64,000 bases of DNA from Anaerolineaceae bacterium (GTDB taxonomy: Bacteria > Chloroflexota > Anaerolineae > Aggregatilineales > Phototrophicaceae). Below the pieces are notes generated by a model that ran no database searches, was not told the origin of the DNA, and saw nothing but the letters and a program-made list of their open reading frames with translations. The stretch spans positions 186,001-250,000 of the forward strand of contig PABP01000021.1 of NCBI GenBank assembly GCA_002699585.1. The letters run 5' to 3'. Shown here piece by piece: positions 12,072 to 24,524 of the stretch. The position numbers were made by a program, and so were the translations under genes. Every line of letters starts with the position of its first letter. Within the stretch, counting starts at the first letter, position 1.

Positions 12072-12974
12072 TTAGTCTACAAGTTTGATGAAAATATCTT
12101 CCAGGCGGCGGTCGATGGGCCGCATTTCTAGCAGTTCCAACCGTTGTTCCGCAATCAGTTGCATGACGGCATGGCGTAGCTCGTCATTGTTACCACGTAT
12201 GATGAAGCCGGATTCGTGTGCCTGTACGTCGCTGACAGCGGGTATCTGCTGCAATAGCCCCTGGATTTGCTCTTTATCACCCTCGATATGTACATAGAGC
12301 GCCAGATCGGAATGGGTTTGCTCACCAAGAATGTCTGTCGTGCCCTCCGCGACGATCTTGCCATTGTTGATAATGACAACTCGGTCACAGATTTGCTCGA
12401 CTTCCGACAAGATATGGCTGCTGAAAAGCACAGTATGGTTATCGCGCAAGCTGCGTACGATGTCCCGCACTTCGACAACTTGCTTGGGGTCAATGCCAAT
12501 CGTCGGTTCATCAAGGATGATAACTGGGGGATTGTGCACCAACGCCTGGGCCAACCCTAGTCGCTGTCGCAGCCCTTTGGAGAGGCTGCGCACCAGCTTT
12601 TTACGACGATCTAGCAGTTGGAACTGCTCCAAAACGGCCTTCACAGCCTGCTTTGGGTTCTTTGTTCGACGGAGCCGTGCCCAGTACAGCACATAGGCTT
12701 CCACAGTCATATCCGGGTAAAGCGGCACTTGCTCTGGCATATAACCCACACGCTGCCGCACTTCCAGCGAATCATCCGTAACATCATAACCAGCCACCTT
12801 GACGCTGCCGGATGTCACCGGCATGTAACCTGTCAGGACGCGCATCGTCGTGGTTTTGCCAGCACCGTTTGGCCCCAATAGACCAACGATCTCCCCAGGT
12901 TGTGCCTGGAAGCTAATATTATCAACAGCCGTGAAGTTACCATACTTCTTGACCAGGTTTTTGACTTCAATCAC
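12072..12974 (-). CDS. ABC transporter ATP-binding protein (GldA-like)
   Basis: Cytoplasmic ATPase powering the adjacent ABC-2 permease. The 300 residues contain Walker A (GLLGPNGAGKTTTMRVL, about 32-48), the Q-loop region (GYMPEQVPLYPDMTV), signature LSKGLRQRLGLAQAL, Walker B VIILDEPTIGIDP and the H-loop LFSSHILSE. A C-terminal domain of about 80 residues follows, as in drug and lipid exporter ATPases. The start is GTG. First gene of a four-gene operon (ATPase, permease, GldG-like, DUF4340-like). An imperfect hairpin at 13024-13043 lies in its upstream leader. Confidence 0.92.
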   Translation of the reverse strand: MIEVKNLVKKYGNFTAVDNISFQAQPGEIVGLLGPNGAGKTTTMRVLTGYMPVTSGSVKVAGYDVTDDSLEVRQRVGYMPEQVPLYPDMTVEAYVLYWARLRRTKNPKQAVKAVLEQFQLLDRRKKLVRSLSKGLRQRLGLAQALVHNPPVIILDEPTIGIDPKQVVEVRDIVRSLRDNHTVLFSSHILSEVEQICDRVVIINNGKIVAEGTTDILGEQTHSDLALYVHIEGDKEQIQGLLQQIPAVSDVQAHESGFIIRGNNDELRHAVMQLIAEQRLELLEMRPIDRRLEDIFIKLVD

Positions 12975-13241
12975 GCAGCTTTGCCTCGGTTACAGCACCG
13001 TGTAAAAAGGTCTCTATGATATGGCGCATGCTATCGCATACGCGCTAGGTATTTGTATATCATAAAAAGTATATGTCACTGTGCGTGTATGTATCATCAA
13101 GAAGTGTAATGTAGATGTAAATTCTGCGTTCTCTAACAAGTCCTCAACAATGGCGGGGCTTATCCGTTCAATCAAAAGCTCGCTTATTTTGGATACTCTG
13201 CACAATGAAATCTAAAAACTGCCTAATGTTAGGCCAATTGT
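12975..13241. other. Divergent intergenic region between the exporter and arg operons
   Basis: No gene is visible. On the minus strand, arms at 13036-13043 and 13024-13031 form an 8-bp stem with one G.U pair and a GATA loop in the leader of the exporter operon. On the other side a perfect palindrome (13221-13234) precedes the arg promoter. Confidence 0.55.
13221..13234. promoter_or_regulatory. Palindrome, possible operator upstream of the arg promoter
   Basis: GCCTAATGTTAGGC is a perfect inverted repeat of 6-bp arms around TG. It ends 7 bp upstream of the -35 box of the arg promoter, a usual place for an activator site. It does not resemble the ArgR box. The regulator is unknown. Confidence 0.45.
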
Positions 13242-13270
13242 TTGACATGTTCCACGTCGTGCCGTAAACT
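13242..13270 (+). promoter_or_regulatory. Promoter of the argCBDJ-carAB operon
   Basis: TTGACA (13242-13247), 17-nt spacer, TAAACT (13265-13270). The -35 is perfect and the -10 matches 4 of 6. Transcription would begin near 13277, giving a leader of about 200 nt before argC that holds the leader peptide and attenuator. Confidence 0.65.
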
Positions 13271-13312
13271 TCTGCGCATTGTAGACAGATACATGGTGTA
13301 AGTCATTTAGCA

Positions 13313-13393
13313 ATGTACGCAAAACCGCGCTCAGAACGACGTCGCCTACCTTACGATGAAGAGGTCGTAACGGGTTTTTTGTGCTGCGCATAG
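13313..13393 (+). CDS. Putative arginine leader peptide of the arg operon
   Basis: A 26-codon reading frame (ATG to TAG) between the arg promoter and argC. It begins MYAKPRSERRRLPY and carries four arginine codons within six (CGC at 13328; CGA, CGT, CGC at 13337-13345). It is followed 30 nt later by a rho-independent terminator and then argC. The layout is that of a ribosome-mediated attenuator: stalling at the Arg codons when charged tRNA-Arg is scarce would leave GAGGTC at 13361-13366 free to pair with GACCTC of the terminator arm. Weak point: no good Shine-Dalgarno sequence is seen before the ATG (only GGTG 14 nt upstream). Inferred from sequence. Confidence 0.6.
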   Translation: MYAKPRSERRRLPYDEEVVTGFLCCA

Positions 13394-13435
13394 CGCGTCC
13401 ATCATTTTCTTAGGAAAACCTTTAGCCCTGACCTC
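13361..13435 (+). promoter_or_regulatory. Putative antiterminator pairing in the arg leader
   Basis: GAGGTC (13361-13366) can pair with GACCTC (13430-13435). Nested inside it, GGTTTT (13373-13378) can pair with AAAACC (13415-13420), extended by G.U pairs. The small hairpin GCGC-ATA-GCGC (13386-13396) at the leader stop codon fits inside both. This structure uses the 5' arm of the terminator, so the two are mutually exclusive. Confidence 0.55.
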
Positions 13436-13463
13436 GTGAAATAATTGAGGCCAGGGCTTTTTT
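13424..13463 (+). terminator. Attenuator terminator before argC
   Basis: Arms AGCCCTGACCTC (13424-13435) and GAGGCCAGGGCT (13447-13458) form a 12-bp stem with one A.C mismatch and an 11-nt loop, followed by six T (13458-13463). It lies only 17 bp before the argC GTG and inside the same transcription unit, so its likely role is conditional termination, not ending another gene. No plus-strand gene lies upstream that would need it. Confidence 0.85.
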
Positions 13464-13480
13464 ACTGATAAGGAGTAGTT

Positions 13481-14485
13481 GTGAGCGAAAAAATCAAAGT
13501 GGGAGTCTACGGTGCGGCAGGTTATGCGGGCCAGGATATGGTCGAACTGCTGCTTAATCACCCCCATGTCGAACTCATTTTTGCGACGTCAAGTACATCC
13601 GCAGGGGAAATCGTACCCAATACAGACCTGCGTTACGTACCTGCGGGAGATGTCACCATGACCGATGCCGATCTGGTCATTCTGGCACTGCCGCATGGGG
13701 CATCGGCTGTGGCTGCTAAGCAAGCTGTCGATAATGGCGTACGTGTGCTTGACCTCTCAGCCGACATGCGGCTGGATACCGCTGAGTCATATAAGCAGTG
13801 GTATGATCTCGACCATCCACACCCTGAATTGCTGGATGCACCTTATGGTCTGCCAGAAATTAACCGCGATGCTTTGCGTAATGTGCAGAAAGTCGCCGTG
13901 CCCGGTTGTTACCCGACCACAACCTTACTTGGCTTGTATCCGCTGCTGGCAATGGATGCCCTTGATGCCAATGCGCCTATCATTGTCGATGCCAAATCCG
14001 GCGTGACCGGAGCAGGTCGCACGCCCAAGCCTAACACGCACTTCGTCACCGTCCATGACAATCTGACGCCCTATAAGACCGGGCGCAAGCATCGCCACGT
14101 TGGTGAAATTGAGCAGGAAATCGCCAAAATTACGCCATCGCATGGGATCTTGATCTTCTGCCCGCATCTTTTGCCCGTTGCCCGTGGCTTGATGGCCAGC
14201 ATCTACGTTACGCTCAACCATCGCATCACCAGCGACCGCGTCCATAGCCTGTATACCAACCACTATGCAGACGAACCGCTTGTTAATGTGCTGCCCTTAG
14301 GGGTTGATGCCCAGCTAAAGGATGCTGTGCTATCCAATCACTGCACGATCAGTATCACGCCCGTGACGGATCATCAGGTCCACATCACCAGCGTGACCGA
14401 CAACCTGCGTAAAGGTACAGCATCGCAGGCCATCCAGTGTTTGAATTTGATGTATGGGTTTGAAGAAACCCTCAGCTTGATATAG
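13481..14485 (+). CDS. argC: N-acetyl-gamma-glutamyl-phosphate reductase
   Basis: NADPH-dependent reduction of N-acetylglutamyl-phosphate to the semialdehyde, third step of arginine synthesis. The 334 residues have the Rossmann start VGVYGAAGYAGQDMVELL (residues about 5-22) and the catalytic cysteine in VAVPGCYPTT (Cys143). The family patterns KSGVTGAGRTPKPNTHF and HRHVGEIEQE follow, and the HLLPVARGL motif lies near 230. The start is GTG with AAGGAG 7 nt upstream. It is the first gene of the arg operon and directly follows the attenuator. Length is normal. Confidence 0.97.
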   Translation: MSEKIKVGVYGAAGYAGQDMVELLLNHPHVELIFATSSTSAGEIVPNTDLRYVPAGDVTMTDADLVILALPHGASAVAAKQAVDNGVRVLDLSADMRLDTAESYKQWYDLDHPHPELLDAPYGLPEINRDALRNVQKVAVPGCYPTTTLLGLYPLLAMDALDANAPIIVDAKSGVTGAGRTPKPNTHFVTVHDNLTPYKTGRKHRHVGEIEQEIAKITPSHGILIFCPHLLPVARGLMASIYVTLNHRITSDRVHSLYTNHYADEPLVNVLPLGVDAQLKDAVLSNHCTISITPVTDHQVHITSVTDNLRKGTASQAIQCLNLMYGFEETLSLI

Positions 14486-14494
14486 GCCAGCACG

Positions 14495-15247
14495 ATGACG
14501 GAAACCTGGATTATCAAGATTAGTGGGCATCAACTGGATGACGAGGCCTTTTTGCAAGATTTTGCCTCGACCATTGCCCAACTGCCGCACCGCGTCGTCT
14601 TGATACACGGGGGCGGCAAGGAAATCAGTCAGTTACAGGGCCGGTTGGGTCTGGAACCGCATTTTGCCGATGGCATCCGTGTGACCGATGCGGAGTCCCT
14701 TTCCTTAGTAGAGATGGTCCTCTGCGGCCTTGTTAACAAACGCTTGGTCCGCTTATTGGTGGAACAGGGCACTGGCGCAATTGGCCTCAGCGGTGTGGAT
14801 ATGGGCCTCATTGAAGCGGAAAAGCTCGCACATCCCACTATCGACATGATGTTCACGGGACAGATCAAGGCCGTAAACGTGGAGCCACTCCAGGGCTTGC
14901 TGCAATCCGGCTTGCTGCCTGTGATTGCACCGATTTGCTATGGACAGGACCACAACTACAACGTCAATGCGGACCATGTCACCGGGGCATTGGCAGCGGC
15001 TCTGGGTGCAGACCGTGCGTTTTTCATCAGTAACGTGCCCGGTGTTATGGCCGATGGCGCTGTCATCGACCAGCTTACGCCGCAACAAACGGAGCAGCTC
15101 ATTACCGATGACGTCATCGTCGGTGGCATGATTCCCAAGGTGCGCACGGCCCTTGAAGTGCTCAATGAAGGTGTGGGGCGGGTCATCATTACCGACCTCA
15201 ACGGCTTACAGAATCAGACAGGTACGACTTTTTTAGAGGGGAAATAA
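14495..15247 (+). CDS. argB: Acetylglutamate kinase
   Basis: Phosphorylates N-acetylglutamate, second step of arginine synthesis. The 250-residue amino-acid-kinase fold shows the nucleotide/substrate loop VVLIHGGGKEIS (about 34-45), the segment GIRVTDAESLSLVEMVL, and the C-terminal metal/nucleotide motif GGMIPKVRTALEVL. It lacks the extra N-terminal helix found in arginine-inhibited hexameric enzymes (about 280-300 residues); in length it resembles the arginine-insensitive E. coli type. It starts 9 bp after argC and is followed by argD after 6 bp. Confidence 0.95.
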   Translation: MTETWIIKISGHQLDDEAFLQDFASTIAQLPHRVVLIHGGGKEISQLQGRLGLEPHFADGIRVTDAESLSLVEMVLCGLVNKRLVRLLVEQGTGAIGLSGVDMGLIEAEKLAHPTIDMMFTGQIKAVNVEPLQGLLQSGLLPVIAPICYGQDHNYNVNADHVTGALAAALGADRAFFISNVPGVMADGAVIDQLTPQQTEQLITDDVIVGGMIPKVRTALEVLNEGVGRVIITDLNGLQNQTGTTFLEGK

Positions 15248-15253
15248 AAGAGG

Positions 15254-16459
15254 ATGAGTGATATGTTGGGTTCAAAGGCGGCTGTAAAGGCGTCGAACGA
15301 TTATCATGTGCAGACGTACGTACGGCCCGAATTTGTCATCGCTCGCGGTGAGGGCATGACGATTTACGACGATGAAGGCCACGCCTATACCGATTGGGTG
15401 GCGGGTATTGCTGTCAATGCACTGGGCTACGGTGATCCGGGTGTTGCTGCGGCGATTACCGAGCAGGTGAATACAGGCGTCCTGCATACCAGCAATCTGT
15501 ACCACACGGAGCCGCAGTCCCGCCTCGCACAGACGCTCGTTGAAAAGTCCTTTGCGGATCGCGTCTTTTTCTCCAATAGTGGTGCTGAAGCCAACGAAGG
15601 CGCTCTGAAGTTTGCTCGTCGTGTGGCGTATGACAGCGGCAATCATGATAAAACAGGCGTCGTCACCTTTAGCGAAGCCTTTCATGGCCGGACGCTTGCG
15701 GCACTTTCCATGACGCCCAAGGAAAAATATCAGAAGCCCTTCAAACCCTTGATGGATCAAGTGACTGTGGGTGAGTTCAACAATGTTGAGAGCGCCAAGG
15801 CCTGCATCAACGACAATACCGTTGCCGTCATTCTGGAACCGATTCAGGGTGAAGGAGGCATCAACGTTGCCACTGACGAGTTCATGGTAGCCGTTCGTCA
15901 GCTATGTGATCAACACAAAGCCATCCTCATTTATGATGAAATTCAGTGTGGTATGGGCCGTACCGGAACCTTGTGGGCTTATGAGCAAACCCCGGTCGCT
16001 CCTGACATCATGACGATTGCCAAGCCACTGGCTGCTGGCTTGCCGATTGGGGCGATCCTGTGTACAGAAACCATTGCTGAGCATATTCACCCTGGTGATC
16101 ATGGTTCAACATTTGCGGGTGGTCCCGTTGTGACCCGTGTCGCTGACTACGTCGTCGGGCGCATCAGCCAACCGGAATTCTTGGAGCATGTGACGGAAGT
16201 CGGCACATATCTTATGGAACGGCTGGAAGAGATCAACAGTCCGCATATTGTGGAAATTCGCGGCAAGGGTTTAATGGTCGGTATGCAATTGAATGTGCCT
16301 GCCGCGCCTATTATCCAGGCTGGCTATGAACATGGTTTGCTGCTCGTCAATGCAGGTACGGAAACAGTACGCTTCATTCCGCCGTTAATTGCTGAAAAAG
16401 CCGATGTCGATGCCCTTATTGAGAAACTCGTCTCGATCCTGGAGTCTATCAATGTCTGA
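15254..16459 (+). CDS. argD: Acetylornithine aminotransferase
   Basis: PLP-dependent conversion of N-acetylglutamate semialdehyde to N-acetylornithine. The 401 residues of this class-III aminotransferase show FFSNSGAEANEGALKFAR (phosphate/PLP contact), SFHGRT-like EAFHGRTLAALS, the aspartate of LIYDEIQCGMGRTG, and the Schiff-base lysine in MTIAKPLAAGLPIGA (Lys257). It carries RBS AGAGGATG-like sequence just before the ATG. It overlaps argJ by 8 bp, implying coupled translation. The enzyme may also act in lysine synthesis (DapC activity), which sequence cannot decide. Confidence 0.95.
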   Translation: MSDMLGSKAAVKASNDYHVQTYVRPEFVIARGEGMTIYDDEGHAYTDWVAGIAVNALGYGDPGVAAAITEQVNTGVLHTSNLYHTEPQSRLAQTLVEKSFADRVFFSNSGAEANEGALKFARRVAYDSGNHDKTGVVTFSEAFHGRTLAALSMTPKEKYQKPFKPLMDQVTVGEFNNVESAKACINDNTVAVILEPIQGEGGINVATDEFMVAVRQLCDQHKAILIYDEIQCGMGRTGTLWAYEQTPVAPDIMTIAKPLAAGLPIGAILCTETIAEHIHPGDHGSTFAGGPVVTRVADYVVGRISQPEFLEHVTEVGTYLMERLEEINSPHIVEIRGKGLMVGMQLNVPAAPIIQAGYEHGLLLVNAGTETVRFIPPLIAEKADVDALIEKLVSILESINV

Positions 16460-17702
16460 GTCCGTGAGTAGTGAAGTGAAAATTACTAATTCGATAGACG
16501 GTGTCGCTGGCTTTTCAGTAGCTGGCGTCCATGCGGGACTGAAAAAAGAGGGCGCGCTCGATTTCGCCATCATCGCCAGTGACCGTCCGAGTGTAGCTGC
16601 TGGTGTTTTTACGCGCAATACGGTCAAAGCGGCTCCGGTGCTGCTTACCATGCAGCGTGCTGCTGAACATGGTGAAGACATCCGCGCGATAGCCATCAAT
16701 ACCAAGAGCGCCAATGCTTGCACTGGCGAAGAGGGCATGGCCAATGCGGAAAAAATGGCCCGACTCGTTGCCGGCCAGATTGGTATCAACGCTCAGCAGG
16801 TGATGGTGATGTCGACGGGTGTTATTGGTACCCAGTTGCCCATGGCCAAAATCGAAAATGGGGCGCAACTGGCTGGTAAATCCCTGGGCAATGACTGGCA
16901 AGCTGCGGCTACCGCTATCATGACCACCGACACGCGGCCCAAATTGGCGTCTGTCACCATATCGACCGCGCAAGGCGAGTACACTATCGCTGGAATTTCT
17001 AAAGGGTCCGGTATGATTGCCCCCAATATGGCTACCATGCTGGGTGTCGTCGTGACCGATGCCGAATTGTCGCAGCCTTTTGCTCAGCAAGCCGTCCGTA
17101 CCGGGGCCGATGCCAGCTTCAACCGCGCTATTGTCGATGGCGATACCAGCACCAATGACATGGTTGTGTTGATGGCGAATGGTGCTAGCGGTGTCAGCAT
17201 CGACCAGATGGAAAGCGCTGATGGCCAGCAGTTCCAGGCTGCACTGAATGAAGTCATGATGTCATTGGCCAAGCAGGTCGTCCGTGATGGTGAAGGCGTC
17301 AGTAAATTCATTAGCCTGCATATCAACAATGCAGCTACTGCCGAAGATGCTCTACAGATCGGTCGCACAATTGCCAACTCGCCCCTGGTGAAAACAGCCT
17401 TTTTTGGCAATGATGCCAATTGGGGCCGCATTATGGCAGCAGCGGGCCGCTCTGGCGCAGCACTCGATCATCATCTTGCGCATCTTTATTTCGCAGTAGG
17501 CGAGGATAGCACCGACGATGCCCTGTGTTTGTTCGCCAATGGCCAACCTACAGACTACTCAGAAGAAGAAGCGACACGTATTATCAAGCATAGTGATGTG
17601 ACCGTGATCCTGGATTGTGGCATGGGCGATGCATCTTGCCGCCTATGGACTTGCGATCTCAGTCACGAGTACGTATCCATCAACAGTGACTATCGCAGCT
17701 AA
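16452..17702 (+). CDS. argJ: Bifunctional ornithine acetyltransferase / N-acetylglutamate synthase
   Basis: Transfers the acetyl group from N-acetylornithine to glutamate, recycling acetyl groups. The 416-residue precursor self-cleaves before a threonine; the site is seen as APNMATMLG with Thr195. KGSGMIAPNM precedes it and GDTSTNDMVVLMANG follows, both invariant in the family; NANWGR-like DANWGRIMAAAGRSG lies near 330. The open frame extends upstream into argD to 16389, but the ATG at 16452 (8-bp overlap) gives the normal N-terminus. Its presence indicates the cyclic arginine pathway, so no argE is required. Confidence 0.96.
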   Translation: MSESVSSEVKITNSIDGVAGFSVAGVHAGLKKEGALDFAIIASDRPSVAAGVFTRNTVKAAPVLLTMQRAAEHGEDIRAIAINTKSANACTGEEGMANAEKMARLVAGQIGINAQQVMVMSTGVIGTQLPMAKIENGAQLAGKSLGNDWQAAATAIMTTDTRPKLASVTISTAQGEYTIAGISKGSGMIAPNMATMLGVVVTDAELSQPFAQQAVRTGADASFNRAIVDGDTSTNDMVVLMANGASGVSIDQMESADGQQFQAALNEVMMSLAKQVVRDGEGVSKFISLHINNAATAEDALQIGRTIANSPLVKTAFFGNDANWGRIMAAAGRSGAALDHHLAHLYFAVGEDSTDDALCLFANGQPTDYSEEEATRIIKHSDVTVILDCGMGDASCRLWTCDLSHEYVSINSDYRS

Positions 17703-17749
17703 ACGCAAATAAACATCAAATTGATCCGTTAGTGGATATGAGGTAAAGC

Positions 17750-18880
17750 ATGACCAACGCGGTACTGGTATTGGAGGACGGGCGCATATTCCCCGGTGTG
17801 GGTTTTGGTGCACAGGGCGTCATGACTGGCGAAGTCGTTTTCAATACGTCGATGACAGGTTATCAAGAGATTTTGACGGACCCGTCATATCATAAGCAAA
17901 TTGTCACGATGACGGTGCCCCATATCGGTAACACGGGCATCAACCTGGAAGATATGGAGTCCCACCGGGTTTGGGTGGCTGGCTTTGTGGTCCGATCTCT
18001 CAGCCCGATTGTCAGCAATTGGCGCCATCACGTGGACCTGGATACTTACCTGCGGGACCAAGGCGTCATTGGCATCTCGGAAGTCTCAACACGAGCCTTG
18101 GTGCGCCATATTCGGGATAAAGGCGTGATGCGGGCGGCCATCGCCTATGGCCACGGTGCCCGTGACCCACAAGCCCTGATCGAAATAGCACGTCGTTCCC
18201 CGGATATGTCGGGCTGGAATCTGGTCGATGATGTCACCACAACAGAACCATATAACTGGACCGAGCATAGCAACAAAGCCTGGTATGCCGAACATGCCTC
18301 GAATGGCGAGAGCCCGCTGGTTGTGGCCTATGACTACGGCATCAAGAGCAATATTCTGCGTATGATGACTGACCGCGGCATTCGCGTAACCGTCGTTCCA
18401 GCCCAGACACCCGTCGATGAAGTGCTGGCCATGCAGCCTTCAGGTGTCTTCTTGAGCAATGGCCCTGGTGACCCAGCGGCGGTTGATTATGCCATTGATA
18501 ACGTCAAGAACCTGCTCGGTGAAGTTCCCATCTTTGGTATTTGCCTGGGACACCAGATTTTAGCGCTGGCCCTCGGCGGAAAAACAGAAAAGATGCAGTT
18601 TGGCCATCGTGGTGGTAACCAGCCTGTGAAGAACTTACTCACGGGCAAGGTCGAAATCAGTGCGCATAATCATGGGTTTGCTGTCTCTGCTGAGAGTGAT
18701 CTGCACGACACCGAAGTCACGCATGTCAACCTGAACGACAACACCATCGAGGGCCTACGGCATACGAGCCTCAAAGCTTTCAGCGTGCAATATCACCCAG
18801 AAGCTTCACCGGGCCCGCATGATTCGCTGTATCTGTTCGATGAGTTTGTCAATTCCGTTAAAGATCAAGTTCCTGAATAA
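17750..18880 (+). CDS. carA: Carbamoyl-phosphate synthase small subunit
   Basis: Glutaminase subunit supplying ammonia to CarB for carbamoyl phosphate (arginine and pyrimidines). The 376 residues have the CarA N-terminal domain ([30 protein letters not shown]) and a class-I amidotransferase domain. The nucleophile is in FGICLGHQ (Cys265); the His and Glu of the triad are in [18 protein letters not shown] lies just before the ATG. It follows argJ by 47 bp and precedes carB by 82 bp in the same orientation, so it is likely under arg attenuator control. Confidence 0.97.
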
Positions 18881-18962
18881 CGACATTCGCAAGAGCGTCA
18901 ATCCGTACGCATAAACATAACAACCCAATCAACTAATCAGTCAGTTCTCAACGGAAGCATCT

Positions 18963-21900
18963 ATGCCAAAACGTACAGATCTCAAGACGATTATGGTGAT
19001 CGGCTCCGGCCCGATTGTGATCGGCCAGGCCAGTGAATTTGATTATAGTGGTGTGCAGGCATGTAAAGCGCTGCGTGCGATGGGGTATCGCATTGTCCTG
19101 GTGAACAGCAACCCGGCCTCGATTATGACGGACCCTGAGTTTGCCGATGCGACCTATATCGAACCGATGACAGTCGAGATGGCCGAGCAAATCATTGCTA
19201 CCGAAAAGCCCGATGCCATTCTGCCGACTGTCGGTGGCCAAACCGGCCTCAATTTAGCGCTGTCCCTTTCAGAAGCGGGCGTGCTCGATAAGTACGGCGT
19301 CGAACTCATTGGTGCCTCAATGGATAGCATCCGTGTCGCAGAGGACCGTGAGCTGTTCAAGAACACCATGACCGAAATTGGCTTGCAATCGCCACCCAGT
19401 CAGGTGGTCGGTTCAGTCGAAGCCGCCCTGGCCTTTGTCGAAGAAATCGGCTACCCGACGCTGATACGCCCCTCGTTTACCCTGGGCGGCAGCGGCGGTG
19501 GTGTCGCTTACAATGAAGAGCAATTGCACGAAGTCGTTGAGCGTGGTATCCGCCTTAGCCCGGTGAATCAGGTGCTGATCGACAAGAGTTTGCTTGGTTG
19601 GAAAGAGTACGAACTCGAATTGATGCGTGATGGCGTCGGTAATTTCGTGGTCGTCTGCTCGATTGAAAACCTTGATCCAATGGGTGTTCATACTGGCGAT
19701 AGCATCACCGTCGCGCCAGCCCAAACGTTGACCGACAAAGAACTCCAGCGTCTGCGTAATATGTGCCGCGCCATTTTTGATCGCATCGGCATTACAACGG
19801 GTGGGGCCAACGTTCAGTTTGCCATTAACCCGGAAGATGGGGACGTCTATGTCATTGAGATGAACCCGCGTGTGTCGCGTTCGTCGGCGCTGGCCAGTAA
19901 AGCCACCGGGTTCCCCATCGCCAAGATTGCGGCGTTGGTCGCTGTCGGCTTGACACTTGATGAGATCAAGAACGATATTACCCGCGTAACGCCTGCCAGC
20001 TTTGAGCCGTCGCTGGATTATGTCGTTGTCAAAATCCCACGTTGGGACTTCAAGAAGTTCCAGGGTGTCGATGAAATTCTTGGCCCGCAGATGAAAGCTG
20101 TCGGTGAAGTGATGGCTATTGGCCGTACCTTCACCGAGTCGCTACAAAAGGCCGTTCGCTCTTTGGACATCGGTATGTCCGGCCTGGGTAGTAAAGTGGA
20201 TGCGGTAGAGAATGTCAGTGCTTTGCGCATTGCGACGGCCCAGCGCCTCTATCAGGTAGCGACTGCTCTCAGGAACGGCGCAACACCAGAGGAAATCACC
20301 CGGGAAACACAATTTGATCCCTGGTTTGTCCAGCAGATTGCCCAAACGATTGGCATCCTGGATACGGTGCTGAGCAAGGGCCTCAAGCTGGGAGACCTGG
20401 ATGCGGAGGACTTCCGCAAGCTCAAACAATATGGCTTCAGTGATATTCACATTGCGCAGCTTATCGGCTCTGATGAACGTGCGGTACGCCAGCAACGTAA
20501 AGACCTGGGCGTTACTGCCAATTACTATCGCGTGGATACCTGCGCAGCGGAGTTTGAAGCGCACACACCTTATCTCTATTCGACATACGAAGATGACGAC
20601 GAGGTGTTCCGTTCAGATAAACCCAAAGTCATGATCTTGGGTGGCGGACCCAATCGTATTGGGCAGGGCATTGAATTTGACTATTGCTGTGTTCATGCCT
20701 GTTTCGCTCTCAAGGACATGGGCTACGAAACGATCATGGTCAATTGCAACCCGGAAACAGTCAGCACGGATTACGACACCGCCGACCGACTTTACTTCGA
20801 GCCGTTGACCGCCGAAGATGTTATGAACATCATTGACATTGAGCAACCAGAAGGCGTTCTTGTCCAGTTTGGCGGTCAGACACCGTTGAACATCGCCAAC
20901 GATTTGCAAGAAATGGGCGCACCCATCTGGGGCACGACTGTCGATACCATTGATCTGGCTGAAGACCGCAAGCGCTTTAACGCCTTGATGAGCCAGCTTA
21001 ATGTGCTACAACCGCCTGGAACGACCGTACTCAGTCGGGAAGATGCTCTTAAAGGTGCTGCTGAGATTGGTTATCCGGTGTTAGTCCGTCCGAGTTATGT
21101 GCTCGGCGGTCGCGGTATGGCCATCGTCTTTGACGAAGACCAGCTCAATCAATGGCTCGATAAAAACGTGGAATGGTCTGGCCATCCGGTGCTGATCGAT
21201 CACTTTTTGGATGATGCCTTTGAGGTTGATGTGGATGCCATCTCTGATGGTCAACACGTCAACATCGGTGGGATCATGCAGCATATTGAAGAAGCTGGTG
21301 TCCATAGTGGCGATTCAGCTTGTGTGCTGCCGCCCTATAAGATTAGCCAGTATCATCTGGATATCATCCGCGACTACACGCAGCGCATTGGTAAAGCAAT
21401 GGAAGTGCGCGGCCTGTTCAACATCCAGTTCGCCGTCAAAGATGATGACGTCTACGTCCTGGAAGTTAATCCGCGCGCTAGCCGGACCGTACCCTTTGTC
21501 AGCAAGGCGACCGGACATCCTTTGGCGCGTTACGCCGCCCAGATTGCCGCTGGGAAAACCTTAGGGGACCTGAACTTCCTGGCTGAGCCGCACGTCGATG
21601 GTTTCTTCGTTAAGGAAGCTGTGTTGCCGTTCCAGAAGTTCCCGATGGTCGATGCCCTGCTTGGCCCAGAAATGCGCTCCACGGGTGAGGTCATGGGCCA
21701 TGCCAGCAGCTTTGGCCACGCTTTCGTCAAAGCGCAGATGGCCGCTAATATGCCTTTGCCGTTGTCTGGCTCGGTATTTATCAGCGTGAATGACTTCGAT
21801 AAAGGCAGCGTTGCGCGTATTGCGCGTGACTTGCATCAGATGGACTTCAAGATTGTGGCAACGGAAGGCACGGCTGAATATCTCAATAAGGCGGGTATTC

Positions 21901-22175
21901 CGACAACGCGCATCAATAAAGTCGCGGAGGGCTCGCCGCATGTGGTCGATGCTCTGCGTCATGGTGAAATTCAACTGGTCATTAACACGCCCCTGGGTAT
22001 GCAGGCCCACGAAGATGGCGCTGCCATCCGCAGCATGTGCTATCAGGTTAGTGTGCCGTTGGTGACCACCATCAGTGCGGCGATGGCATCGCTCCAGGGC
22101 ATCAAACGCATGAAGCAGAAACCGCTGCATGTGCGTAGTCTGCAAAAACATCACGCCATCAATGAACTGGCCTGA
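18963..22175 (+). CDS. carB: Carbamoyl-phosphate synthase large subunit
   Basis: Makes carbamoyl phosphate from bicarbonate, ATP and ammonia. The 1070-residue protein contains two homologous ATP-grasp halves ([19 protein letters not shown] near residue 11 and [19 protein letters not shown] near 560), each with Gly-rich loop [11 protein letters not shown] or [11 protein letters not shown] and metal-binding [12 protein letters not shown] or [14 protein letters not shown]-terminal MGS-like allosteric domain (about 935-1070) binds effectors in relatives. Length is normal. It overlaps the following membrane protein gene by one base (TGATG). Confidence 0.98.
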
Positions 22176-22774
22176 TGCGTCGCGTTGTTTTGATCCACAC
22201 TTGGACGCTGTTCGGTGCTACCGCTGCAATGGCGTTCCACATCTTTATCACAGCAGCAGGGGACAGGTGGCTGTCCCCTGAACGCTTTGGCGATGCGCTG
22301 GGTTATGGTCTGATTTTTGGCCATATAGTCGCGTTGATGGCTGTTGGCGTTCATCTGTCATCGACCCGAATCCAGCCCGCGCTACTTCGAATGGTTATCA
22401 CAGGCGGGGTAGGCACTGCACTGGGAACAGTTGCCTGGGCATCGCATACCGTCCTGTATCTTCGCAATACCTCGCCTGACATCCTTATCCTCGTTCTAGG
22501 TGGTGTTGGGCTGACTGTTGGCATAGTCACCCAGAACGTGTTTCGCATACCCCGCGTTATATCGACCATCATTGCGTTTATCGGCATTTTTGCAGCGGTG
22601 ATGCTCACTTATCTGAACTTCGACACATACCGCCTCGCGCCCCAGCCGCCGATGGCGCTGCTGTATTTCAAGCCAGAATACCCCACATTGGTCTGGCTAG
22701 TTGCCGGGATGTTTGCAGCACTGATTGCTGTAACCAGTACGTTTTCTTTTGAAAATCGGCCGGTGCAGTCGTAA
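22175..22774 (+). CDS. Hypothetical polytopic membrane protein
   Basis: A 199-residue protein with about six hydrophobic segments separated by short loops, and no catalytic motif that I recognise. Its ATG overlaps the carB stop (TGATG), so it is translated from the arg-car transcript. It ends one base from the convergent kinase gene. The link with arginine metabolism may be positional only. Function unknown. Confidence 0.65.
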   Translation: MRRVVLIHTWTLFGATAAMAFHIFITAAGDRWLSPERFGDALGYGLIFGHIVALMAVGVHLSSTRIQPALLRMVITGGVGTALGTVAWASHTVLYLRNTSPDILILVLGGVGLTVGIVTQNVFRIPRVISTIIAFIGIFAAVMLTYLNFDTYRLAPQPPMALLYFKPEYPTLVWLVAGMFAALIAVTSTFSFENRPVQS

Positions 22775-22775
22775 C

Positions 22776-24524
22776 TCAGTCGGTATCGACTATAGCCGTT
22801 GCCCCCGGATGATAGTCATCCAGAATAGACCCGCCGATGAACTCGCGCAGCAGCGAAGTGTCGGGAACAAGCTGCATCTGGTCGAGGTTGAGTGGTGTCA
22901 CCCAACGTAAAAAGCTCAAGAGACGATTAGCCTCGATGTGTGGCCTTGTCCTCGGCTCGACTTGTAACAGCAGGGGTTCCGCCAACCGCCTGAGTGCGGT
23001 TAGCTCATACGGCAACGCTGAATTGAACATGGCATCGGCATTTTCCTGATAGGGGAAGATATTGGTCTTTTCCCCTCGGCGAACGCTGGGCCATCGCGCA
23101 ATCGTATCTGTCGCACTGTAACCTCGGCGTCGGGCATCACGCACGATGCGTCGTAGCAGGCGCACATCTGTTGTCGAAACGCGATTGTGTAAATCAATGT
23201 TGAGCTGTGTCAACGCCGAGACATACACTCTGAAGATTCGCTCCGCAGGGATGGCTGGCACCAGGTTCGGATTCAGGCCATGAATGCCTTCCACGATGAT
23301 GACCTGGCGATCATCAAGCTGAATCTCTTTTCCAGCTTCGCTTTTGCCTGTGAGGAAGTTGAAATTGGGTATTTGGACCCGTTCGCCGTCCATCAACTTT
23401 ATCAGGTTCTCGTTGAAAAGGGGCAGATTCAAGGCATGGATCGACTCGAAGTCATAATCGCCATTTTCATCACGAGGGGTATGTTCCCGATCAACGAAGT
23501 AGTTGTCTAGTTCCAGGGTGAACGGGTGCAGCCCATGCGCCAGCAATTGGATCGCTAGCCGCTTGGCGAAGGTAGTCTTGCCCGATGAGGAGGGTCCGGC
23601 AATCAGGACCAGGCGCGTGCCGCTGTCGTAACGGCTGACAATCTGCGACGAGATGGACGCCACATTTTGTTCATGCAGCGCTTCTGCTACCAGGATCAAT
23701 TCCTGGATGCGGTCTTGTGTGACGACCTGATTCAAGCGGCCAATGTCCTCCACGCCGAGCCGCTCAAGCCATTGATCTGTCTGCCGGAATACGGTGATGA
23801 GCTTGCTCAGCGTAGTAATGGGCTGCATGACATCTGGGTTTTCCTTGCGTGGATATTGCAGGATGAACCCACCGTTTGCCGGGACGAGCTTGAATGTTTG
23901 TAGGTAGGCTGTCGAGGGAACCATATAGCCGTAGTAGTAATCGTCTCGTCCCCGCAGCCGATACATGGTAATGGTATCTTGATGCCGGAACCGCAGCAAG
24001 CGGACTTTATCCAGTTCGCTGCGTCGTTTGAACAAGTCGCGTGCTTCATCGATAGTGATGCTGCGTTTTGTAATCAAGTCGTCATTATCAACGATGGCAC
24101 GCATATGCGCTTCTAGCTTCTTAATGTCATCTTCTGTGACGGGTTGTCCAATTAGCTCACAGTAATAACCGCCATCTGGTATGGCGTAATTGACGCTCAC
24201 GGTCGTTCCCGGCCACAATTCTTCTATCGCTGTAACCATCAGCAGCACAAGTGAACGACGATAAATCCGGCTGCCATCGCTGTTCGCAAGCGTGATCGGC
24301 TGCACGTGCATATCGGTACTCACTTGATGGGTAAGCTCTAGCAATTTGCCATTGCCTACCGCTGCAAGTAGCTCAGCGGTAGGTGTAATTTTCGATAAAT
24401 GGAGGCCCTCTGTCAGAAAGGTCTCCAGGGTAGTGCCATAAGGCCCCGACAGGATTGTGCCATCATCCAGGGTAATACGGACCTCATCACGGGGTTTTGA
24501 AAGAATAATACTCGTTTGATTCAT
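22776..24524 (-). CDS. TGS/SAD-domain nucleoside (uridine) kinase
   Basis: The 582-residue protein combines a TGS-like N-terminus (about 1-65), a threonyl-tRNA-synthetase second-additional-domain (SAD) like region (about 70-250), and a C-terminal uridine kinase/phosphoribulokinase P-loop domain. Walker A is IAGPSSSGKTTFAKRL (about 310), and the metal or substrate region is LDNYFVDREHTPRDENGDYD; VEGIHGLNPNLVP follows. In the SAD part the zinc/editing HxxxH of ThrRS is replaced by RRSLVLLM, so tRNA editing is unlikely. Such fusions are known as nucleoside kinases in other bacteria. It is convergent with the arg operon. Confidence 0.8.
   Translation of the reverse strand: MNQTSIILSKPRDEVRITLDDGTILSGPYGTTLETFLTEGLHLSKITPTAELLAAVGNGKLLELTHQVSTDMHVQPITLANSDGSRIYRRSLVLLMVTAIEELWPGTTVSVNYAIPDGGYYCELIGQPVTEDDIKKLEAHMRAIVDNDDLITKRSITIDEARDLFKRRSELDKVRLLRFRHQDTITMYRLRGRDDYYYGYMVPSTAYLQTFKLVPANGGFILQYPRKENPDVMQPITTLSKLITVFRQTDQWLERLGVEDIGRLNQVVTQDRIQELILVAEALHEQNVASISSQIVSRYDSGTRLVLIAGPSSSGKTTFAKRLAIQLLAHGLHPFTLELDNYFVDREHTPRDENGDYDFESIHALNLPLFNENLIKLMDGERVQIPNFNFLTGKSEAGKEIQLDDRQVIIVEGIHGLNPNLVPAIPAERIFRVYVSALTQLNIDLHNRVSTTDVRLLRRIVRDARRRGYSATDTIARWPSVRRGEKTNIFPYQENADAMFNSALPYELTALRRLAEPLLLQVEPRTRPHIEANRLLSFLRWVTPLNLDQMQLVPDTSLLREFIGGSILDDYHPGATAIVDTD

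Follow-up and report, generated by a model that had tools for sequence, protein, structure and literature searches.

A candidate arginine-sensing transcription attenuator upstream of argCBDJ-carAB in an Anaerolineaceae bacterium and related Chloroflexota

The leader of the argCBDJ-carAB operon in this Anaerolineaceae genome lies in the 64,000-nucleotide stretch of DNA that was analysed (the window; C35:186001-250000). Very probably it regulates the operon as a ribosome-mediated transcription attenuator responding to charged arginyl-tRNA, a reading to which we assign a probability of about 0.86. The promoter, the ORF with arginine codons and the overlapping antiterminator and terminator can be read directly from the sequence, as can their order, spacing and conservation. 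The find appears to be larger than one leader and to concern a widespread family of arginine attenuators, which would serve at least two operons in this genome and occurs in lineages without detected ArgR. Arginine synthesis is the textbook case of control by a repressor, and a widespread arginine version in lineages without ArgR, if true, would suggest that for one and the same pathway tRNA-sensing attenuation and a repressor can replace each other over long times. A regulon is proposed from sequence alone for a phylum with little known regulation, with the prediction of a short leader RNA ending at about 13463 and of arginine-dependent read-through.

Architecture and predicted folding of the argC leader

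All parts of the leader lie on the plus strand. A sigma70-type promoter at 13242-13270 (TTGACA-17-TAAACT, matching 10 of 12 consensus positions) is followed at 13313-13393 by a putative leader peptide ORF of 26 codons (MYAKPRSERRRLPYDEEVVTGFLCCA, then a stop codon), whose ATG stands 42 nt past the -10 site and has no clear Shine-Dalgarno sequence; a Pfam search with the 26-residue peptide, a very short query, returned no match, PF10940 (Orf34) included. Four of the six codons at 13328-13345 (CGC TCA GAA CGA CGT CGC) specify arginine, and the Arg enrichment of this control region is kept in relatives. Two pairs of arms would form the antiterminator, the outer GAGGTC (13361-13366) with GACCTC (13430-13435) and the inner GGTTTT (13373-13378) with AAAACC (13415-13420). 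The outer arm GACCTC is also the inner half of the 5' arm of a predicted intrinsic terminator at 13424-13463 (stem 13424-13435/13447-13458 with one mismatch, T run at 13458-13463). Two hallmarks of an attenuator were thereby found, an arm (13430-13435) shared between antiterminator and terminator, and an intrinsic terminator placed between the leader ORF and argC. The terminator was absent from a simple terminator scan because its loop of 11 exceeds the limit of 8 set there. A likely argC ribosome binding site (AAGGAG) lies at 13470-13475, and the 17 bases between the T run and the argC GTG (13481) leave hardly any room for a separate promoter 3' of the terminator. A protector hairpin (1:2) was predicted from CCTTACGA at 13349-13356 and TCGTAACG at 13365-13372. 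The promoter, the ORF with four arginine codons in six, the stems and the terminator had all been placed at these coordinates by the original prediction, and they were confirmed on the sequence.

The RNA left free at each ribosome position was folded to 13446, that is, before the 3' arm of the terminator exists. The antiterminator was the best predicted fold with RNA free from 13346 through 13361 (-21.6 to -21.9 kcal/mol; for RNA starting at 13358 or 13361, its arms lay within best folds of -21.6 and -21.9 kcal/mol), and it was lost with RNA free from 13367 on (-13.1 and weaker). This switch between 13361 and 13367 suggests that a ribosome held at 13328-13345 would keep the antiterminator and that one farther on would destroy it. 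The earlier claim that a ribosome stalled on the arginine codons frees the arm at 13361 agrees with the predicted fold, which keeps the antiterminator from 13358/13361. In the full-length RNA from 13358 the terminator fold was best (-33.1), so the switch must be kinetic. It counts against the mechanism that the antiterminator is favoured over the protector even in RNA that is free all the way from 13346 to 13446.

A stalled ribosome has its front edge about 12 nt beyond the codon in the A site. Under arginine shortage the ribosome would stall at 13328-13345, cover the RNA to about 13357 and hide the 5' arm of the protector; 13361-13366 and 13373-13378 would then pair with 13430-13435 and 13415-13420 ahead of synthesis of the terminator 3' arm, and with the antiterminator formed RNA polymerase would read into argC. 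With plentiful arginine, the ribosome would proceed to the stop codon and mask 13373-13378, the protector (13349-13372) would re-form behind it, and 13424-13458 would fold as the terminator, ending transcription at about 13463. The original prediction had the ribosome at the stop cover the antiterminator arm. With a footprint of the usual size, a ribosome that has reached the stop (13391-13393) would occupy about 13375-13405; the claim then stands for the inner arm at 13373-13378 and fails for the outer arm at 13361-13366. In our view the terminator is more plausibly released by the hairpin 13349-13356/13365-13372 re-forming behind the ribosome. This protector is nonetheless the least supported part of the mechanism and weak across relatives: it is predicted in this genome, pairing at that register varies among relatives, and over 113 leaders the mean z was -0.7, 17 of them lying under the 5% rank of their shuffles. 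Direct masking of arm 2 by a ribosome at the stop is possible in families f2 and f3, where a median of 2 nt separates arm 2 from the stop codon that follows it.

The segment 13358-13465 was equalled or bettered in folding by 3 of 200 shuffles (z -2.3) and the whole leader by 21 of 200 (z -1.3). When an ORF was sought 15-120 nt before each of the 27 terminator-like sites in the window (tiles overlapped, and duplicates were kept in the count), four sites, this leader included, were preceded by an ORF with at least four Arg in six codons. The lone sequence is moderately beyond chance and suggestive only; conservation decides.

The gene order argCBDJ-carAB given by the original prediction was upheld by family matches (NCBIfam; for argJ also Pfam), again all on the plus strand: argC at 13481-14485 (start GTG; TIGR01850, over cut-off), argB at 14495-15247 (TIGR00761, over cut-off), argD at 15254-16459 (TIGR00707, over cut-off), argJ at 16479-17702 (NF003802, PF01960), carA at 17750-18880 (TIGR01368) and carB at 18963-22175 (NF003671). 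The argJ start at 16479 was chosen within a longer listed ORF that starts at 16389, the family match beginning at residue 34 of the latter. An ORF of 199 codons that overlaps the carB stop (22175-22774, plus strand), without NCBIfam or Pfam match, is a possible tail of the operon. The promoter scan of 13200-22900 gave 6 sites, as compared with 8.4 in shuffles, and listed none between argJ and carA. This carA is the only match over the family cut-off in the genome, and its place inside an operon that would be attenuated raises the question of pyrimidine supply when ample arginine shuts the operon. The linkage of argC and carA is shared, not universal: carA follows argC at about 4-5 kb on the same strand in 7 of 25 genomes (this genome, G000, with G001, G006, G007, G009, G012 and G014), G004 has a carA fragment at the matching place downstream of argC, and in L004 and L006 carB lies upstream of argC on the opposite strand.

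Conservation of the leader among relatives

Orthologues of argC (E up to 1e-60) were found in 126 of 154 genomes of the order and in 177 of 296 genomes of the class, order included. We took 480 nt upstream of argC from 125 genomes of the order (30 + 95 loci; G110 was omitted because of a contig edge, and for G004 and G011, in which argC is split, the contig bearing the N-terminal part was used) and from 40 class genomes outside the order, which had been picked to spread over families before the upstreams were seen. A leader was scored where an ORF had an Arg-rich window of six codons ending 15-120 nt before a terminator-like hairpin, a hairpin of this kind being present at 114 of the 125 order loci and 36 of the 40 others. 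At least three Arg in six together with a terminator were found in 112 of 125 order genomes and 28 of 40 other class genomes, and at least four in 100 of 125 and 9 of 40, respectively. In ten runs of dinucleotide shuffling, applied to the part 5' of the terminator, the corresponding counts were 33-45 and 2-12 for the order (n=125) and 9-14 and 0-5 for the other class genomes (n=40). The lower threshold of three in six is therefore reached by chance in about a third of shuffles, which counts against it. At three in six, the amino acid that came next was Ser for the order (30 of 125) and Leu for the other class genomes (10 of 40). Within the order, at least four Arg were present in all 39 loci of families other than f1 and in 61 of 86 of f1. 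Alignment with relatives had been proposed as a check by the original prediction, and as far as the arginine codons are concerned it turned out in favour (112/125 and 28/40).

The 13 misses in the order are L085, L086, L094, L103, L110, L133, L134, L139, L145, L150, L153, L165 and L169; at L086 an Arg leader is present and the hairpin lies below the score threshold. The 12 misses in the class outside the order are L208, L219, L225, L227, L231, L232, L233, L235, L236, L239, L240 and L242, where L233 offered an upstream sequence of 193 nt only, and some of the 28 matches there (e.g. L209 and L220) are doubtful by eye, with poor arm pairing. In the metagenome-assembled genome of L008, an Arg leader and terminator (L008:2957-3100) stand some 200-300 nt before argC, and the intervening DNA is hairpin-like.

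The second half of the check concerned the stems, and here too the outcome was positive. In 140 leaders from order and class with at least three Arg, the stretch from the last Arg codon to the terminator paired with the 5' arm of the terminator at a mean z of -1.7 against shuffles (z < -1 in 95, z < -2 in 62). In a second test, with a fixed stretch of 45 nt and 124 non-redundant leaders (six from f78 and f103 among them), the antiterminator duplex beat 95% of shuffles in 70 of 124. Mean duplex energy was -15.6 kcal/mol when an arm was paired with its own partner and -11.8 when partners were exchanged between families, although only 28 of the 124 leaders fell below 5% of their own swaps, and in f36, f43, f46 and f50 the pairing was not above chance in the 45-nt test. 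The arm pairs are GAGGTC/GACCTC in f1, GGTCCGG/CCGGACC in f3, GGTCTGG/CCAGACC in f40 (f7 being close to f40) and GAGGTTCG/CGAACCT in f8, so that the predicted arms differ by family and yet remain complementary. Within f1 formal covariation is modest because the arms are near-invariant: the core comprises six pairs, of which five occur in 47-52 of 53 aligned rows and the sixth (13364:13432) in 38 of 53, with a double change from G-C to A-U in 4; these counts cover 53 of 57 rows, as L099, L100, L126 and L164 were dropped where the alignment had placed another segment. In the 102 leaders that have at least four Arg and a duplex at or below -10 kcal/mol, the median distance from the last Arg codon to the start of arm 2 is 13 nt (quartiles 10 and 16), which matches the front edge of a stalled ribosome given above. 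A divergent subgroup of f1 (L112, L115, L117-L119 and other loci, many of genus g17) has arm 3 GATCTC and arm 2 GAGTTC or GAGATC; full pairing is seen in only some of its members, and the leader frame is less clear.

A promoter matching at least 10 of 12 positions precedes the leader at 81 of 146 leader-bearing loci, as compared with 1 of 146 in shuffles. Among the 64 leaders with such a promoter and an in-frame ATG 3' of the -10 site, 13 have that ATG at most 12 nt downstream of the -10, and in these the peptide may be translated leaderless or nearly so, from RNA perhaps without a 5' UTR.

These counts bear on the possibility that an ordinary terminator merely happens to follow an accidental Arg-rich ORF. 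Such a coincidence draws some credit from the 4 of 27 window sites and from the third of shuffles that reach three Arg in six, but it is disfavoured already by the conservation, duplex and promoter counts against shuffles, above all by at least four Arg in 100 of 125 order genomes (2-12 in shuffles) and in 39 of 39 order loci of families other than f1. Moreover, the upstream neighbour, an ABC-transporter-like gene, lies on the minus strand (12072-12974), and its transcript is therefore not the one that the terminator ends. We consider a chance origin extremely improbable.

A constitutive or ligand-binding leader (a riboswitch or T-box) with an incidental ORF is hardly more probable. The layout of terminator and antiterminator is common to many leaders of that sort, but no Rfam match reached the gathering threshold in the window, and at 17 loci searched with E up to 1 three matches were returned: a tRNA (L107), one at L204 that is far below the gathering score and away from the leader, and one at L178. 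Furthermore, the arms differ between families while the arginine codons persist. The match at L178:114-221 is to Pseudomon-1/ErsA (25.7 of 50 bits, E 0.45) and overlaps the Arg leader and terminator; it is probably a chance match to the hairpin alone.

Two further alternatives keep the leader peptide and change how it would act. Free arginine or the Arg-rich peptide in the exit tunnel could halt the ribosome, instead of slow decoding of Arg codons, stalling by a nascent peptide being known from the fungal arginine attenuator peptide and from SpeFL. Pro is often found close to the Arg runs of the leaders, and speF orf34 is, in the accessible part of its report, a bacterial leader responsive to arginine and ornithine (PMC6386406). 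Besides Arg, however, the peptides share little between families, the residues recurring in f1 (Q-T, E-V, G-F-L) fall in or near paired RNA, and the distance of the Arg run from possible start codons varies among leaders, and we regard this alternative as unlikely, if the least so of the rivals. Leader translation might also act mainly via Rho or transcription-translation coupling with the terminator as a by-product, and speF orf34 uses Rho according to the same portion of text (PMC6386406), but in many families the antiterminator is overlapped by hairpins with a U tail close to argC, and we give this scarcely any weight.

Comparison with known systems and with the distribution of ArgR

Attenuation by decoding of arginine codons, the reading we prefer, belongs to a well-studied class. 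Ribosome-mediated attenuation has been worked out for the his, trp, leu, thr, ilv and phe operons of Proteobacteria. Like the classical attenuators, the candidate described here has a leader ORF rich in codons of the product, an antiterminator that would depend on stalling, and a terminator before the first biosynthetic gene; unlike those of the his, trp and leu type, it has arginine codons, is found in Chloroflexota, and includes some leaders perhaps without a 5' UTR (13/64). In Escherichia coli and Bacillus, ArgR represses arg and car genes according to arginine supply; it acts on the same genes and responds to arginine, but it is a DNA-binding protein and was not found in this order. Clostridial arg operons carry an arginine T-box, which senses the charging of tRNA-Arg and has a premature terminator; in contrast to the candidate it is a tRNA-binding RNA without leader peptide, and no Rfam T-box match was found here. 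His attenuators are described in Firmicutes in the available part of one source (PMC9413887). In Salmonella, the accessible part of the speF report states that two Arg codons of orf34 report arginine for polyamine synthesis through Rho, access to the ribosome binding site and RNase G (PMC6386406). The orf34/SpeFL leader of Salmonella and E. coli is, like the present leaders, a short ORF in which consecutive Arg codons serve as a gauge of arginine supply. It differs in controlling ornithine decarboxylase, by those means according to the same text, where argC and the following genes lie downstream here. The uORFC-8-2 leader of cysS in Rhodobacterales, a predicted ribosome-mediated attenuator in the excerpt available (PMC8632094), likewise has tandem relevant codons, but they are cysteine codons and the bacteria Rhodobacterales. 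For E. coli argA, an effect of tandem CGG codons within the gene was modelled, as far as the accessible text goes (PMC10325894). A search of the open-licence literature, which could miss older subscription work, turned up no account of arginine synthesis in bacteria being under ribosome-mediated attenuation; the mechanism itself is classical, and the arginine specificity and the lineage appear new within this open-access search.

ArgR was searched for with PF02863, the model of its C-terminal domain. It was found in none of 61 order genomes, this genome included (8 of 14 controls were positive), in none of the 40 sampled class genomes outside the order, which were searched directly, and in none of the 6 leader-bearing genomes of f78 and f103 outside the class. 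ArgR control of these operons was rejected on this basis, ArgR (PF02863) not being found in the genome, the order or the leader-bearing sampled genomes. In a draw of 301 genomes of the phylum ArgR was present in 72, all labelled outside the class. Among 40 upstreams from outside the class, 6 had a leader and terminator at four or more Arg, namely 3 of 3 from f78 and 3 of 3 from f103; one shuffle run on these 40 gave 3 at three Arg and 0 at four. Of the 34 other genomes sampled outside the class, five have ArgR (G470, G481, G526, G561 and G622) and none of these five has a leader, so that Arg leader and ArgR co-occurred in no genome examined for both. The remaining 29 of 34 have neither ArgR nor a convincing leader, which indicates that losses of ArgR do not match gains of an attenuator case by case, and the pattern may reflect nothing more than descent. 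Outside the class, L317, L319 and L335 have three Arg in six before a terminator-like site; they look unlike the leaders and are probably due to chance.

A second candidate leader before argGH and other arginine genes

The genes argG (C35:470274) and argH (C35:471553) adjoin each other on the same contig as the argC operon. Upstream of argG lie an ORF (MNMLIRVRRLRIELIAPL, then a stop codon) and a terminator (AACCTCTGTCACCAGAGGTTTTTTT), with a predicted antiterminator in which GTGAAGAGG, about 20 nt past the last Arg codon, pairs with CCTCTGTCAC. A second switch of the same kind thus appears to precede argGH in this genome. In 25 genomes, 23 argG loci passed the family cut-off; 9 of them, this genome included, combine four or more Arg with a terminator, one more has three Arg and 13 are without (L263, cut short by its contig, was counted as a miss). 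Arginyl-tRNA-sensing attenuation of both argCBDJ-carAB and argGH is the most likely reading, and the two attenuators may do the job of ArgR in this lineage.

Among 27 of 28 argF loci scanned (the partial L299 was left out), no credible leader was seen. Inclusion of argF in the regulon was rejected: L286 and L289 alone have at least four Arg before a terminator-like site, and both look coding by eye. This genome also has a second argC-like gene (G000:C23:629806-630804, L002; 34% identity), at which no Arg leader was seen; the ORF upstream of it looks, we assume, of LysX/ArgX type, and the gene presumably belongs to a LysW-type pathway.

Taken more widely, arginyl-tRNA-sensing attenuators may govern arginine synthesis in ArgR-less lineages throughout the class, which is probably Anaerolineae, and in two other families of the phylum, controlling at least the argC-led and argG-led operons; they would be old, as the arms differ and yet are complementary, their leader peptides would in part be leaderless, and here the operon with the sole carA would tie carbamoyl phosphate for pyrimidines to arginine supply. 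We consider this wider reading probable, with clearly less confidence than that for the argC leader itself.

In the argGH leader of this genome (L267:1194-1350, at C35 ~469967), a likely -10 site (TAATAT) stands 7 nt before the leader ATG, and this leader may be translated from leaderless RNA.
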